The position numbers and the translations under genes were made by a program. This document shows, one piece after another, positions 2,902 to 56,993 of a stretch of 64,000 nt of DNA. The notes under the pieces are model-generated. The model was not told the origin of the DNA, searched no databases, and was given only the letters and a program-made list of their open reading frames with translations. Position 1 is the first letter of the stretch, and each line of letters opens with the position of its first letter. Origin of the DNA: an uncultured Chlorobiaceae bacterium (GTDB lineage: Bacteria > Bacteroidota > Chlorobiia > Chlorobiales > Chlorobiaceae); assembly GCA_903843305.1 (NCBI GenBank), contig CAIMPI010000034.1:28186-92185 (forward strand). Reading direction: 5' to 3'.

Positions 2902-3456
2902 ATGGGAATTTCCCGTTTAATTGCTATTTTTCAGAGGCGTTTAATGAACATTAAGAATGAGACGATGCGCAAGGTTTTAATGTTTGGCTCACTGCTACTA
3001 TCCTTGGCTCTCAGCTCCTGTTCTTCTTCAAGGCTCGAATTCACCGGCATTTCACCCGAAGAGGCATATAGGCTGGGAAAAATCAAAAATACCCCTTATT
3101 GCATCGACGGCAAGGTGTATTCACCCATAAGCTATGAGGAGGCTGTCGCCTATGAGGAGACTGGCATCGCATCGTGGTACGGTCAGGAAACCCTCGATCA
3201 GCATAGCGGGCAGTTAACGGCTTATGGAGAAATATTCGACCCGTCAAGACCCAGCGCAGCACATAAATACCTCCCTCTCCCTTCTCTTGTGAAGGTAACA
3301 AACCTTGACACCCATTCTTCGATTGTGGTCCGAGTCAATGACAGAGGCCCATTCATTGGTGACCGCGTGATTGATCTGAGTGCAGAAGCGGCAAAAAGGT
3401 TAGGATTCTTTGAAAAAGGAACTGCTAAGGTCAAGATTGAAGTGCTTTCCCGATAA
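2902..3456 (+). CDS. rlpA: RlpA-like septal ring lytic transglycosylase/lipoprotein
   Basis: Lipoprotein signal (LLLSLALSSCSSS), then GIASWYGQ...TAYGEIFDPS..AAHKYLPLPSLVKVTNLDTHSSIVVRVNDRGPF..RVIDLSAEAAKRLGF, the RlpA double-psi beta-barrel signature. Confidence 0.93.
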   Translation: MGISRLIAIFQRRLMNIKNETMRKVLMFGSLLLSLALSSCSSSRLEFTGISPEEAYRLGKIKNTPYCIDGKVYSPISYEEAVAYEETGIASWYGQETLDQHSGQLTAYGEIFDPSRPSAAHKYLPLPSLVKVTNLDTHSSIVVRVNDRGPFIGDRVIDLSAEAAKRLGFFEKGTAKVKIEVLSR

Positions 3457-42111: not shown

Positions 42112-42254
42112 TAAAAAACTAACTTGTAAACAGTGAATGTTGATGGCGTTAATAATATTGGCTCTTACCTCTTAAATTTTCTTTTTTTATGCTCGAAGTT
42201 ACGTCAAAAACGTTTTCAGAATATTCACAACCGAGAAACCAAAAAAGCAGCTCA

Positions 42255-43664
42255 ATGGAACAGCAGGTTTGGGATTCATGCCTAAATACCATAAGAGAAA
42301 AAATCAATCCTTTAGCTTTCAAGACCTGGTTTTTTCCAATCAAGCCATTAAGTTTTTCGGGCAGCGAGCTGACAATAGAAGTACCAAGCCAGTTTTTCTA
42401 TGAATGGATAGAGGAAAATTATTCCTCTTTTTTAAAGCAGGCGCTTAAAGAGGTTATTGGGCCTGAAGCACGATTAATGTACTCTATCGTTATGGATAAA
42501 TCGCAAGGCCAACCGGTCACCATAGAACTACCTCAGCAGAACGCGATGAACCGTGATTTTATTGCCGCAAGTCGAGGCTTGGAAACACGTGCAAAAAATA
42601 CGGAGGAGTTTGAACGGAACCTTGCTCGGTTTGAAACTCACTTGAACTCTAAATACACGTTTGACACGCTTATAAGAGGCGATTGCAATTCGCTTGCCTT
42701 CGCTGCTGCAAAAGCTGTTGCGCAAAGCCCTGGTCAAAATGCCTTTAACCCTCTCGTTATCTATGGTGGCGTAGGTCTTGGTAAAACTCATATCATGCAA
42801 GCTGTTGGAAACAGTGTTCGTGAGAACAGACTTTCAGAAAGAGTTCTTTATGTTTCAAGTGAGAAATTTGCCATTGACTTTGTGAATGCTATCCAGAATG
42901 GAAAAATCCAGGAATTTTCTTCCTTTTACCGTTCTATTGATGTTCTGATTATTGATGATATTCAATTTTTTTCCGGCAAGGAAAAAACACAAGAAGAAAT
43001 TTTTCATATTTTTAACACGCTGCATCAGTCAAACAAACAGATTATTCTTTCTGCAGATCGACCAATAAAGGATATCAAGGGAATTGAAGATCGACTAATA
43101 TCCCGTTTTAACTGGGGGCTCTCGGCCGATATACAACCTCCTGACTATGAAACAAGAAAGGCTATTATTCTCAGCAAACTGCATCAAAGCGGAGTCAATC
43201 TTAATGACACGGTTATCGAATTCATTGCGACCAATGTCACAGAGAATGTCAGGGAGCTTGAGGGGTGCATTGTTAAATTGCTTGCCGCACAGTCTCTGGA
43301 TAACAGAGAAATTGATCTCCAGTTTACCAAATCAACGCTCAAGGATATTATCAGGCATACAACAAAACGGCTTACCCTGGAAACTATAGAGAAAGCAGTT
43401 TGTTCTTACTTTTCAATTACACCAAATGATTTAAAAGGTAAATCTAAAAAGAAAGAGATCGCCTTCGGACGTCAAATTGCAATGTATCTATCAAAAAGTC
43501 TCACCGACTCATCACTCAAAACGATAGGGCTTCATTTTGGAGGACGGGACCATTCAACAGTTATACATGCCGTTACCACGATCACTAAAAAGGTCGATTC
43601 AATGGCTGAGGAGAGAAAAAAAATTGAAGAAATCAGAAAGCGGATTGAAATTCTGTCAATGTGA
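42255..43664 (+). CDS. dnaA: Chromosomal replication initiator protein DnaA
   Basis: [22 protein letters not shown] (Walker A), [20 protein letters not shown]-terminal [12 protein letters not shown]. Start at MEQQVWDSC or at the track start 42189. Confidence 0.98.
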
Positions 43665-47831: not shown

Positions 47832-47894
47832 CCATGAAGAACCTTTTTATGAAATATAGGTATTACAGCTTGATGTCAAGAAGGTTCTTCATGG
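47832..47894. repeat. 14-bp perfect inverted repeat spanning the polB 3' end
   Basis: CCATGAAGAACCTT (47832-47845) and AAGGTTCTTCATGG (47881-47894), 35-nt spacer. Confidence 0.85.
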
Positions 47895-50260
47895 TTATGA
47901 GTGGTTTCGGTGTGACGTATTTCTTTCTGAAGTTCTATGCCTTCTGCTGAAAATAAGAAAAGAGAATCAGTTGAAAATATCATTCTGTAATCCTGTGGTT
48001 TGAAAAACGGAAGAAACTTCTGGCAATGTTCATCCAGACGCTTCAGATAGAAATAAGTGTTCTCATCAGGTTTTTCTTTGTTCCATTCCGAAGCAAGCTT
48101 TCCTTTATCCCAAGAAGCGTTTCCCATCCCAGTGCCAGAAATATAATACGTTATCCGTTCCCCTTTTGTTATGGTTATACCAGCCTTTATAACAATTTCA
48201 TAGGTAATTGATTTTGATCTTTTTCCGGATTTTACATCAGCAAGATATTGTTCAATCGAATTCTTGATCGTTTCTGTTTTTGAGAAGTCAGATATATCCA
48301 TCTCATGGTTAAGAATCTTTTCCCTGTATTCAGTAAAAAGATTGTGCAGGCCATTGATATCTTCTGTCAACAGCATCTCGAATCCCCTGCGGACAAAGTC
48401 TCTTCCGAATTTTTCGCCGCTTCTGCTGGTTAATGAAGAGCCTTTCAGGGTCATGATATTGTTATACCCTAAAAGAGCATAGTTTTTTTTCATGTATGAG
48501 ATCATTTTTCTGAATCGGCCATCATAGCCTATGTTAATACCCTCCGGCATGAGTTTGGAAACTTCATTGACAAGTTCTCTTTCAGCCAATTCAGTTGTGA
48601 TATTCTCCGGTGGTACAAAAAGAATCCCGTCGGTGTCAACCTCAATGACTTTGCATCCCCTTGTCTCAAATTCCACAATCATTTTTTTTGCAAGGCTTTG
48701 CCCTGTTGATGTCACTTTGTCGGCTTCCATAAAATCATTGAAAATACCATTGTTGAATCCAAGGTAACCATACATGGCATTGATAAGAATCTTGAATGAG
48801 CCTTGCATTGCGTCGAAATTTTCGGCGAGAGAGGTATGGCCCAGATTCTTTTCCTCCCGGGATTTCTCTTTTGCCTTGAAACGAAGTTCTTTCAGATCGT
48901 TTAATACTACCGGAAATACTCGTAATTCATCACTTTCTGGACATATATTGTAAGAAAGCATTATTGAGGGATAGAGTGATTCAACATCTGCATAGACAAT
49001 AGGCCCAAGAATTCCTTTAAGAAATACTTCTGTGTAACCGCCCGAATGCTGCTGACCTGAAGAAGGTTTTGGAATGGAGTGCTTGCAACGAAGGTATTCT
49101 CTCACGAGCAGAATTTCAATTTTTGCTGCCTGTCCAATTCTTGCTGTCATAGCGTAGGTATAGGGAAGCATTTGTACTAAGTAGAAATTGCTGCCTGAAA
49201 GCAGTGATGAAAGTGCCCTGGTTTCGCGGACATCATCCAACGCATAAGCAAGAAGCTTTTCGTGGTTATTTTTCCAGAGCGTAGCAATATCTTTGTAATC
49301 AACATAGGTTCGTTCTGGAGATGCAAAGCCGAAGTGTCTGGCTACAGCTTTCAGTCCGTAACTTTGCATTGAGCGTTTTGAGACATCATAACTCTGCACC
49401 AGAAAAAGTGTATCAATGACATGTCTGCCCGGTATATCAAAAAAGGTGTAATCAATACTTCTTTCTGCAAATCTGATGCTTGCGGGGTATGTTTTCGGAA
49501 GCATTCCGTTGCGTCCAATCGCAAAGGGAATCCCGTGTCGTTCACACCTTCGCTGGAGATACGGGAGGTCAAAATTGAAAATGTTATGGCCTTCAATAAC
49601 ATCGGGATCCATTTTAGCAATAAGGGCGACAAGCGTTCCAAGCAGTGCTTTTTCAGTGCTGTTTTTGGAATGCAGAACAGATTCCCATCCTCTGTTATCG
49701 CTCAGTGAAACAATAATAATCTCATCTTCCTCACTAACATACCCTCTTGATCGTTGTATTGACGGATCATAATTTGTTTCTATATCTATTTGCATACGGT
49801 AGATCTCGTCGAACATCATCCCCTTGAAAAGAGTCTTCCCACTTTGCAGGAGATATTGTGTTACCGCATCTCCTTTGTTATATACATGAGAGTTACTCTC
49901 GTATGTAATGTTTTTGTTTTCAGCTTTGTCGCTATATTGCCTCTTGTTTATAAAATCAAGAGCGCTCCTGTGATTTTTCAAATTCTGAAAAATTGCAAGA
50001 AATTGATAATAATTTGCACCGCCAAGTTTTATAAGCCAGAATTTCTCTTTCTCTTCAGGCACAAAACCATCAAGTAAAGAGCTGTCTGAAAGGAAAAAAA
50101 ACGGAAAGAATAATTCATCATGAAATCGAACCTCATCATTTTCCCGATTAAAAACTCTTATAGACGTATCAGATAGTTGGTATACACCAACAATACCTTT
50201 TTCTTTATCCTTACCGAATAAAAGGTCGTTGTTGATGATATCACTGATTATGTTGTCCAT
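47876..50260 (-). CDS. DNA polymerase, family B (Pol II-like) with 3'-5' exonuclease domain
   Basis: Exo motifs [25 protein letters not shown]; polymerase motifs [12 protein letters not shown] (A), [13 protein letters not shown] (B), VDTDGILF (C). Start taken at MDNIISD. Confidence 0.93.
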
Positions 50261-50293: not shown

Positions 50294-50327
50294 GACCATA
50301 TATGTTTCACGTGAAACATATATGGTC
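50294..50327. promoter_or_regulatory. parS: parS-like centromere site within a 34-bp perfect palindrome
   Basis: GACCATATATGTTTCACGTGAAACATATATGGTC. The core TGTTTCACGTGAAACA (50303-50318) is identical to the bacterial parS consensus. Confidence 0.93.
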
Positions 50328-52196
50328 TCAACGGCCGAGATGTATCATAAGAATGGAGATATCTGATGGAGATACGCCAAGAATTCTTGATGCCTGGCCT
50401 ATTGTCTCTGGCAGATGTTTTTTTAATTTTTCCCTTCCTTCATTTGAAAGACCCGAAACCGTATCGTATTTAAACAATGGTGGTATTTGATGGGATTCAA
50501 GTCGCTGAATTCTATCGTTCATGAACAGATCGCGTTTGAGATAACCTTCATACTTTAGATCTATCTCAACTTGTTCATATAGTAATGGCTCAGTGCTTAT
50601 CGTGTAAATAGCGGCCTTCAGAGATGGTGAAGCGTTTACAAGCATTGACAGAGTAACACCGGGTCTTTTCAAAAGGGTTAACGCGCTTTGTGAGCTATTC
50701 ACTATCGGATACCCAAGAGAAGGAAGTATGGAGTTAATTTCTGAGGCATCTATTCTTGTGCACAACAACATTCGTTTCAGAGTTTCTATATCTGCAATTT
50801 TCTTGTTGCAAATAGAAAATAATTCTTCACTGACAAGCCCTGCGATAAAACCGAAGCGCTGCAGGCGGATATCTGCATTATCATGGCGAAGTATCAGTCT
50901 GTGCTCTGCTGATGAAGTAAACATACGATAGGGTTCATTGGTAACTTTTGTGATGAGATCGTCTATGAGTACTCCTATATAGGCATCAGAGCGCTTCAGG
51001 TAAAGTGGCGGATGGTTTTTCACCCTGAGTGAAGCATTAATGCCAGCCATTAGTCCCTGAGCAGCAGCTTCTTCATACCCTGATGTTCCATTGATCTGAC
51101 CAGCAAAGTAAAGGTTTGGACATATTTTTGTTTCAAGTGTTCTCTTTATTTGATGCGGAAAGAAATAGTCGTATTCAATAGCATAGCCCGGACGTATCAT
51201 TTTAACCCCAGCAAGGCCAGAAATGGAGCGTAAGCCCTCTAATTGAATTTCTTCGGGCAGTGACGTTGAAAACCCGTTGACATACATTTCGTTGGTATCA
51301 AATCCTTCCGGTTCAAGAAATATTTGGTGTCCTGATTTGTCGGGGAAACGGCAGATTTTATCTTCTATCGAAGGGCAGTATCTCGGCCCGACACCCTTTA
51401 CTTTGCCTGTGAATAGTGGCGATCTGTCAAATCCTTTTTTTAGTATTTCATGGGTTGCCGTAGTTGTTTTTGTAACGAAACACTTAATCTGTTTGCGCTT
51501 TGGTTGATTAAGAGTTTTGAATGAGAATCTTACAGGTTCGTCGTCTCCTCTTTGTTCCTCAACCATCGAGTAGTCAACACTTCGCGCGTCAATCCGTGGG
51601 GGAGTTCCTGTTTTTAGTCTACCTGATATAAAACCAAGACTGACAAGGTTTTCAGTAAGACCGTGAACCGGAGGTTCTGCAATAGTCCGCCCGCCTTCAT
51701 AATGGGTCATTCCGATATGTATGAGTCCATTCAAAAACGTTCCGCAGGTCAGAATTGCGACTTCACCCTTGACCTTTCTCCCTGATGAGAGAACTACAGC
51801 AGCAAATGTTCCAGACGAAGAGCATTCAATGGCCGTTACTGTATCCTGGAGTAAATCTATATTTGGTTCTCGTTCAATTGTTTTACGCATGTAAAGTGAG
51901 TACAGCGTGCGATCTGCTTGGGCTCTCGGAGAGTGCATGGCCGGTCCTTTGCTTCTGTTAAGCATTCTAAACTGGATCCCTGATGCATCTATTGCTTTTG
52001 CCATTTCGCCACCTAGGGCATCAATTTCTCTGGTGATTTGCCCTTTTGCGACACCTCCAATGGCCGGATTACAGGACATACGTGCTATCGCTGTAAGGTC
52101 AGATGAAATAAGTAGGCATGTGCAACCCATTCTTGCTGCGGCAAGTGCAGCCTCACAGCCAGCATGGCCAGCACCGGCAACTATGATATCATACAT
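50328..52196 (-). CDS. mnmG: tRNA uridine-5-carboxymethylaminomethyl modification enzyme MnmG/GidA
   Basis: [65 protein letters not shown]. Start at MYDII, not the track start 52286. Confidence 0.98.
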
Positions 52197-52208: not shown

Positions 52209-52224
52209 TGTTTCACGTGAAACA
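52209..52224. promoter_or_regulatory. parS: Second perfect parS site, in the mnmG leader
   Basis: TGTTTCACGTGAAACA, exact parS consensus, ending 13 nt upstream of the mnmG start codon. Confidence 0.93.
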
Positions 52225-53676: not shown

Positions 53677-54975
53677 ATGATTATGCTTCAAAAACTTACA
53701 CGCAGGGATTTTAATAAACTCCTCTTGTCGGGTGTTGCAGGTTCTGCGCTAGGGCTGTTCGGGAAATCGAATACAGCTTTTGCCTCAACAAAACGAGTTG
53801 TGGTTATCGGAGGTGGTTTCGGGGGAGCCGCCGCTGCAAAATATTTAAGAAAACTTGATCCTTCAATTGCTGTAACTCTTGTTGAACCGAAAGCGATTTT
53901 CTACACCTGTCCATTTAGTAACTGGGTACTTGGCGGTCTGAAAACAATGGAGGATATTGCCCATACCTATACCGTACTGAAAAACAAATACCAGATAAAC
54001 ATTGTGTCGGATGTCGTTACCAGCATTGATGTAACGAAAGGTACGGTTAAACTGAAAAGCGGCAATGTACTGAGTTACGATCGGCTTGTTGTTTCTCCAG
54101 GTATTGATTTTAAATGGGATTCTATCGGAGGATATAGCGAAAGCGTCGCTAACAGCAAAATGCCTCATTCCTGGCATGCAGGACCCCAAACTATTTTGCT
54201 GCATAAACAACTCCTTGGCATGAGGGATGGAGGCAATGTGTTCATTTGTCCCCCAGCCAACCCATTCAGATGTCCTCCAGGCCCCTATGAACGAGCGAGT
54301 CTTATTGCGTATTATCTGAAAGAGCACAAGCCGAAGTCAAAAATTATCATTTTTGATGCCAAGGAGAATTTCTCGAAACAGGAATTGTTCAAAAAAGGGT
54401 GGGAGCGCCTTTATCCTGGCATGATTGAATGGCGATCGAGTGCAATGGGCGGAAAGGTGAGCAGGGTTGATGCCGGCGCAATGACCGTTACCACTGAATT
54501 TGGCGTTGAGAAAGGTGATGTTATCAATGTCATTCCAGCACAGAAAGCTGGTAAAATAGCTTTTGATGCTGGTCTTACCGATGCCACAGGATGGTGCCCG
54601 ATCAATCCCGTGTCGTTTGAGTCAACTATTCATCCCGGAATCCATGTGATTGGTGATGCCTCTTTTGCAGGAGCCATGCCGAAGTCAGGATTTGCAGCCA
54701 GCAGCCAGGGAAAGGTTGCCGCTGCCGCCATCGTCCGGTTGTTCCAGGGCAAGGTTCCTGCGGCTCCTTCGTTGGTCAATACTTGCTACAGCCTGCTTGC
54801 TCCAAAATACGGTATCTCAGTTGCTGGTGTCTACAAGCTTACCGTTGAGGGTATTGTTGAAATCAAGGAGGCCGGTGGATTGACGCCGATCAATGCCGAT
54901 GATGATCAGCTCAGAGAGGAAGCCCTCTTTGCTGAAGGCTGGTACAAGAATATCTCTCTGGATACCTGGGGATAA
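53677..54975 (+). CDS. fccB: Flavocytochrome c sulfide dehydrogenase, flavoprotein subunit
   Basis: TAT signal [100 protein letters not shown]. Confidence 0.95.
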
Positions 54976-54990
54976 AAATTAAAGCAATCC

Positions 54991-55029
54991 AACGTAAAAA
55001 GCCCGGCATTTTACCGGGCTTTTTACGTT
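54991..55029. terminator. Strong, potentially bidirectional terminator downstream of fccB
   Basis: AACGTAAAAAGCCCGG-CATTTTA-CCGGGCTTTTTACGTT: 16-bp perfect stem with A/T flanks. Confidence 0.92.
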
Positions 55030-55130
55030 GGAGCCATATCTGGCCAGCATTGATTGGTGTATGCAGATTGTTAGTTAATCACTACCCCATTTTATATATT
55101 GGCTGAACTATTTCTTCCGAGCGAAACGCG

Positions 55131-56993
55131 ATGTCATCAATGAAAAATAAACGTTTTAACCTTCTTCTTATTGCTGTAGTCACTCTTGTGGCCGCCTGGT
55201 CATTATGGCCGACCTGGCGAGACTACTCACTTTCGAAGCAACTCAAGAGTTTTGGATCAGCCCAGGACAGTCTTAAATATGCGTTGAATCATCGTGAAGA
55301 GATTGAGGATGCACGCAAAAAAAGTCTGAAGCTCGGTCTGGATTTAAAGGGTGGTATGCATCTGGTTATGGAAGTAGATCAAGTGGATCTGTTTGAACAG
55401 AAAGCATGGAATAAAGATGCCAAGTTTGCTGCCATCATGCAGGTTGTAAGGACAAAGGCCTCCAAAAGCGATATCAGGGTTATCGATCTTCTGGTTGCTG
55501 AATTCAGGAATGAAAATATTCGACTGAGCCGTTATTTTTATGATATCCGCAACAGCGATCAGGAAATTGTAGGAAAACTGGAAAAGGAATCTGAAGACGC
55601 CCTCAATCGAGCCAAAGAGATAATCCGCAATCGAATTGACCAATATGGTGTTGCTGAACCGGTTATTACTACACAGGGAAGCAGAAAAATTATTATAGAG
55701 CTTCCCGGAGTTTCGGATGAAAACAGGGTGAGAAATTTGCTGAAAGGTACCGCAAAGCTTGAATTCAGGGTTTTGCGCGAACCGGAAGTTATGATCAGAA
55801 CGCTTGACAGGATCAACTCATATCTTGTAGAAAACCGAGTTGTTGCACATGCCGCTCCTGTTGCCGATTCATCATCATCAGTACTTGCTCCTGTTCCGCA
55901 AACTGGCGGATCGCCAGCCCAGCCAGGCAGCAACTCCTCTTCTGCCAAACCTCTGTATGATGTTATTGGCGTTTTTCAGAATGGGACAGCCTATACTGCC
56001 GAACATACTAAAGAGTTTGTTGTATCGTTGTTGCATCGCAGTGACATACAGGCGCTTCTGCCTCCAGATACGGAACTATTGCTTGCCGCCAAGCCGGAGG
56101 TAGGTAAAACGGGTGAAAAACTCTATCCGATCTATCTTGTCAGAAAAAGCCCTGAACTTACGGGTGGGGTTATTACGGAAGCAAAGGCCACATTTGGTTC
56201 GCAGGGTGTTCAGCCTGAGGTATTGATGTCGATGAACTCGGAAGGAACCTCGAAATGGGCACGTATTACCGGTGCAAATATCGGCAAGCGTATTGCGATA
56301 GTGCTGGACGGGGCGGTTTACAGCGCTCCGGTTGTCCAGTCGAAGATTCCGAATGGTAATTCAGTGATCAATGGGATTGAAAGCCTTGAGGAGGCAAAAG
56401 ATCTTGAAATTGTACTGAAAGCTGGAGCGCTTCCTGCGCCAGTCAGGATTACTGAAGAACGAAGCGTTGGGCCATCACTCGGCGCCGATTACATCCGGGC
56501 AGGAATGCAGTCTCTTGCATGGGCATTCTGTGCGGTGTCCGTTTTTATGCTTGTCTACTATAAAAAAGCCGGTATCGCGGCAGATATAGCCCTGGTGCTG
56601 AATATCCTCATTGTACTGTCAGTACTTGCAGGGTTTAATGCCTCTCTTTCATTGCCGGGCATTGCTGGTATTGTACTGACCATTGGTATGGCGGTTGATG
56701 CTAACGTGCTGATCTATGAGAGGATACGAGAAGAGCTTGCTGAAGGAAAATCTGTGGTTTCTGCTGTAACGCAGGGTTATGATCGGGCGTTTTCCTCTAT
56801 TCTTGATTCGCATGTGACGACTCTGTCTGCGGCCTTTCTTCTCTACACTTATGGTATAGGCCCAATTCAGGGTTTTGCTGTAACGCTGATGATTGGTACT
56901 TCTGCAAGCTTGTTTACAGCTATCGTGGTTAGCAGGGAGATTTTCCATCTGCTGCTTGCCAAAAATCTTATGTCAGACAAAAGTTTCGGTTAA
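55131..56993 (+). CDS. secD: Protein translocase subunit SecD
   Basis: [18 protein letters not shown], ...[41 protein letters not shown]. Confidence 0.97.

Follow-up and report, generated by a model that had tools for sequence, protein, structure and literature searches.

We describe a 34-bp perfect palindrome next to mnmG in an uncultured green sulfur bacterium of the Chlorobiaceae, and we consider it highly probable that this palindrome is a parS site (site B) of a chromosomal ParABS system and that its extra symmetry is not needed for this role. The palindrome has the appearance of a functional, ordinary parS that lies near the origin and belongs to a compact centromere of two sites. A second site (site A) lies beyond mnmG, and the two together probably form the whole chromosomal centromere of this bacterium; the extended symmetry is probably incidental to partition. 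From the two sites, the conservation of the pair and the presence of parA and parB, we infer ParB binding and a function in segregation. ParB, whose loading in other bacteria is a CTP-dependent clamp loading, is predicted to load at site B together with site A across mnmG; ParA, and probably SMC, would then act on the origin region just after its replication, moving and organising it.

Within the window, by which we mean the whole 64-kb stretch of DNA analysed, the palindrome GACCATATATGTTTCACGTGAAACATATATGGTC occupies positions 50294-50327, without strand, and is the only perfect palindrome there that has no spacer and whose arms reach 14 bp or more. Its arms (50294-50310 and 50311-50327) are 100% complementary with zero spacer. 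At its centre, site B (50303-50318, without strand) is a perfect copy of the parS consensus TGTTTCACGTGAAACA, with 0 mismatches, to which a lineage-specific 9 bp of extra symmetry is added on each side. The palindrome directly adjoins the stop codon (TGA, 50328-50330, minus strand) of mnmG (gidA; 50328-52196, minus strand; TIGR00136, E 2.1e-237). An initial annotation of this DNA had described a perfect 17+17 palindrome whose central 16 bp equal the parS consensus and which abuts the mnmG stop about 8 kb from dnaA; all of these features were borne out, the distance to the dnaA start at 42189 being 8.1 kb. Absent from that annotation was the partner across mnmG, site A (52209-52224, without strand), likewise a perfect consensus with 0 mismatches, which lies 12 bp upstream of the mnmG start codon and has arms of 8 bp only, without extension.

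The position of the pair is origin-proximal, as for chromosomal parS, with dnaA (42189-43664, plus strand) on the origin side and coinciding with the GC-skew minimum of the window at 42-44 kb. Downstream of site B, and in the same direction as mnmG, lies a conserved neighbour, the family-B DNA polymerase gene polB (47876-50257, minus strand). The listed polB open reading frame starts at 50299, inside the palindrome; this start is probably not real, because homology to relatives begins further in. Elsewhere in the window, a perfect 19-bp inverted repeat with a 7-base loop at 54988-55032 (TCCAACGTAAAAAGCCCGG) is probably a terminator between open reading frames ending at 54975 and starting at 55131.

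The genome assembly (2.59 Mb in 55 contigs, 99.9% complete) contains exactly two perfect parS sequences, sites A and B. Allowing two mismatches adds two sites, the number also given by a reversed control pattern; besides A and B, the genome holds no credible parS. The initial annotation had proposed searching the rest of the genome for parAB and for further parS sites; the latter search yields one more perfect site, the partner at 52209-52224, and the genes are present on another contig in the order parA, parB, dapB. A single protein with a ParB_N domain is encoded (E 3.6e-28), which exceeds the cut-off of TIGR00180 (NCBIfam ParB/RepB/Spo0J) by far, falls below the NCBIfam Noc cut-off, and has Spo0J of 1vz0 as its best relative of solved structure. 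It contains the GERRLRA and ENIQREDL motifs and, numbered by ungapped count from the GKxR motif, residues Q162, G170, K171, N172, R173, N178, F179, K184, G201 and R204. R173 and G201 are absolutely conserved in ParB, with Q and R in their place in Noc (PMC7383237); by its sequence, then, the protein carries parS-type recognition residues. In a single-contig relative (G071), mnmG lies at about 7-9 kb and parB at 334 kb, and parAB therefore does not stand beside parS in this group.

The arrangement around mnmG is conserved. Among 93 distinct mnmG loci gathered from Chlorobiaceae and other Chlorobiales, and with presence scored at no more than two mismatches, 87 of 92 loci keep site A and 89 of 92 keep site B. 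The pair, A at the 5' side and B at the 3' side, about 1.9 kb apart (1892-1912 bp in Chlorobiaceae), is conserved in Chlorobiaceae and most Chlorobiales, and in relatives with a single exact site the partner is mostly present with one mismatch. The parS identity of the palindrome, as first annotated, is well supported because parAB is found elsewhere in the genome and site B is so widely kept. Site A is unrecognisable in three related genomes (G071, G060 and G087). In two of these, at the mnmG 3' end of loci L076 (G060) and L077 (G087) (about 3000-3055), two parS-like sites in inverted orientation abut and make a 36- to 40-bp palindrome; they read TGTTTCACGTGGAACA then TGTTCCACGTGAAACA in L077, and the outermost bases in L076 are C and G. 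Of 21 records from other Bacteroidota families, all selected for holding a perfect parS, 20 have parS at mnmG, on one side of the gene or on both. Eight outgroup loci, most of them bearing the label Deltaproteobacteria, have parA and parB downstream of mnmG, so that the association of parS with mnmG plausibly descends from an ancestral neighbourhood that joined mnmG to parAB; the Deltaproteobacteria loci examined have no parS with one mismatch or fewer near mnmG.

The long arms have a different distribution. The flanks of site B are not conserved in sequence and, in the comparison with relatives that had been proposed at the outset, are not generally palindromic, which argues against an extended role. 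The initial suggestion that the extra symmetry adds a second function is thus not supported as a general property, most relatives lacking the arms; it keeps some ground, since long arms have recurred at this one 3' site far more often than chance would give. At least five consecutive extra pairs are found at 7 of 89 B sites (the window, L046, L052, L055, L197, L100 and L065) and at none of 86 A sites. A tree of mnmG proteins requires six changes to account for the extended set, at least five of them forced by supported branches, and is the better guide to independence, because shuffle tests ignore relatedness. In L124, the sister of L046, 13 of 14 flank positions are paired. Outside Chlorobiales, the distant Bacteroidota genome G084 has a perfect 46-bp palindrome centred on the mnmG 3' parS (L224, about 2486-2531), and G041 and G057 have palindromes of 28 and 32 bp at the mnmG 5' side. 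In a survey of 732 kb from 63 loci, 11 perfect palindromes have no spacer and arms of 11 bp or longer, and 10 of them are parS sites; the sole long palindrome of another kind is a perfect 36-bp sequence, GATCTGCTTGTTTCTGAATTCAGAAACAAGCAGATC, in L120 (about 1659-1694).

We consider an even chance to be a reasonable estimate for the proposal that replication template switching on a palindromic nucleus made these arms. The 16-bp palindrome would seed template switching during replication, a process known to create and mend hairpin arms (PMC8794818), and the switch would overwrite one flank with the reverse complement of the other. In individual lineages the palindrome would then occasionally grow at the 3' site of mnmG, since the flanks there are without coding or ribosome-binding constraint. 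Within the L052 clade it is the left arm that resembles non-extended relatives, and the right arm does not, suggesting that one of the two arms was changed to fit its partner. The right arm of the window palindrome, read in the mnmG sense, agrees with its sisters at 5-7 of 9 positions, compared with 2-5 of 9 for the left arm; this has the right direction and is suggestive only, too weak to prove copying of the left arm in a single event, because the intergenic flanks have diverged. Against template switching, arm growth would also be predicted at site A, where it is not seen among the 86 sites; the right flank of site A bears the ribosome-binding region of mnmG. Close relatives also show paired changes, such as C-G to T-A at flank position 5 between L052 and L055, and these also fit selection for pairing.

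Such selection could act on RNA. The main rival to template switching, which we nonetheless think unlikely, holds that site B is parS in the DNA and a terminator stem or 3'-end hairpin in the mnmG RNA, with arms selected for a stronger stem. The long arms directly follow the mnmG stop and are lacking at site A, and the window stem, if transcribed, folds at -20.3 kcal/mol and is flagged as terminator-like. Furthermore, at least five T in the nine bases after the core, in the mnmG sense, are present at 45 of 82 non-extended B sites, compared with 13 on the other strand, and the palindrome of G084 is followed in the same sense by the T-rich stretch TTTTATTTATTTATAG. The extended stems themselves, however, lack a T-run in the window, L046, L055 and L065 (2-4 T in nine bases); as an intrinsic terminator, the window sequence combines a strong hairpin with a weak tail, AATTTACATT, of 4 T in nine. 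G-U pairs in the mnmG sense are not significantly enriched (169, against 161 in shuffles, sd 8.4), the next gene, polB, is close by in the same direction, and the extended arms of G041 and G057 are on the 5' side. A combined reading, of a two-site centromere whose 3' site was recurrently selected for long arms as both a ParB loading site and a hairpin, in RNA or DNA, that influences mnmG expression, seems to us rather doubtful.

Selection of the extended symmetry in the DNA, where it would tune ParB nucleation or create, nested with parS, a site at which a second dimeric protein binds, is improbable. Symmetry is a hallmark of DNA binding, across Bacteroidota the arms can be extended at the 5' as well as the 3' side of mnmG, and the abutting inverted sites occur in two relatives whose site A is unrecognisable; yet arms are missing at most sites, and each extended lineage has its own arm sequence, with none shared, which argues against a common second recognition sequence. 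We find it harder still to credit a chance match in AT-rich DNA. The arms are indeed AT-rich with TATA steps, and the near relatives L081, L082 and L094 have partly symmetric AT-rich flanks. Nine further paired flank positions around a given parS have a chance probability of about 1e-5 (per-pair probability 0.28), or about 1e-3 over the 89 homologous sites together, so that an event of 1e-5 is needed for the window site alone. Chance is disfavoured for the set as a whole: against the seven extended B sites observed, 0.15 are expected by base composition and 0.47 by shuffled partners, none of 2000 shuffles reached seven, and nearly all long palindromes of the survey are parS.

The likely centromere of green sulfur bacteria is in this way assigned to a pair of sites bracketing a single housekeeping gene, which makes it very compact. 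The recurrent lengthening of parS offers a natural set for testing whether template switching acted on a conserved protein-binding palindrome or whether a second role was selected. A title and abstract search found no specific study of parS with Chlorobi, mnmG or Bacteroidetes; the main survey of parS sites is reportedly that of Livny et al. 2007.

Among known systems, the Noc-binding site is related in its palindrome and protein family. It was rejected as an identity, the site being parS and the protein having R, F, K and G where the Noc type has Q173, K179, K184 and R201; in contrast to the Q and R of Noc, R173 and G201 are of the ParB type, in keeping with the score below the Noc cut-off. 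An intrinsic terminator hairpin would resemble the palindrome, if transcribed, in its strong stem directly after a stop codon, whereas here the stem is AT-rich, its core is fixed by parS, and the T-tail is weak. The quasipalindromes produced by template switching (PMC8794818) share arms that are exact reverse complements and that differ in sequence from lineage to lineage; unlike them, the nucleus here would be a conserved protein-binding palindrome, and the process is one that we infer. The closest likeness is to chromosomal parS, from the exact 16 bp and the nearness to dnaA to the parA and parB genes and the parS-type ParB residues, although here two sites surround mnmG far from parAB, and site B extends its symmetry by 9 bp on each side.
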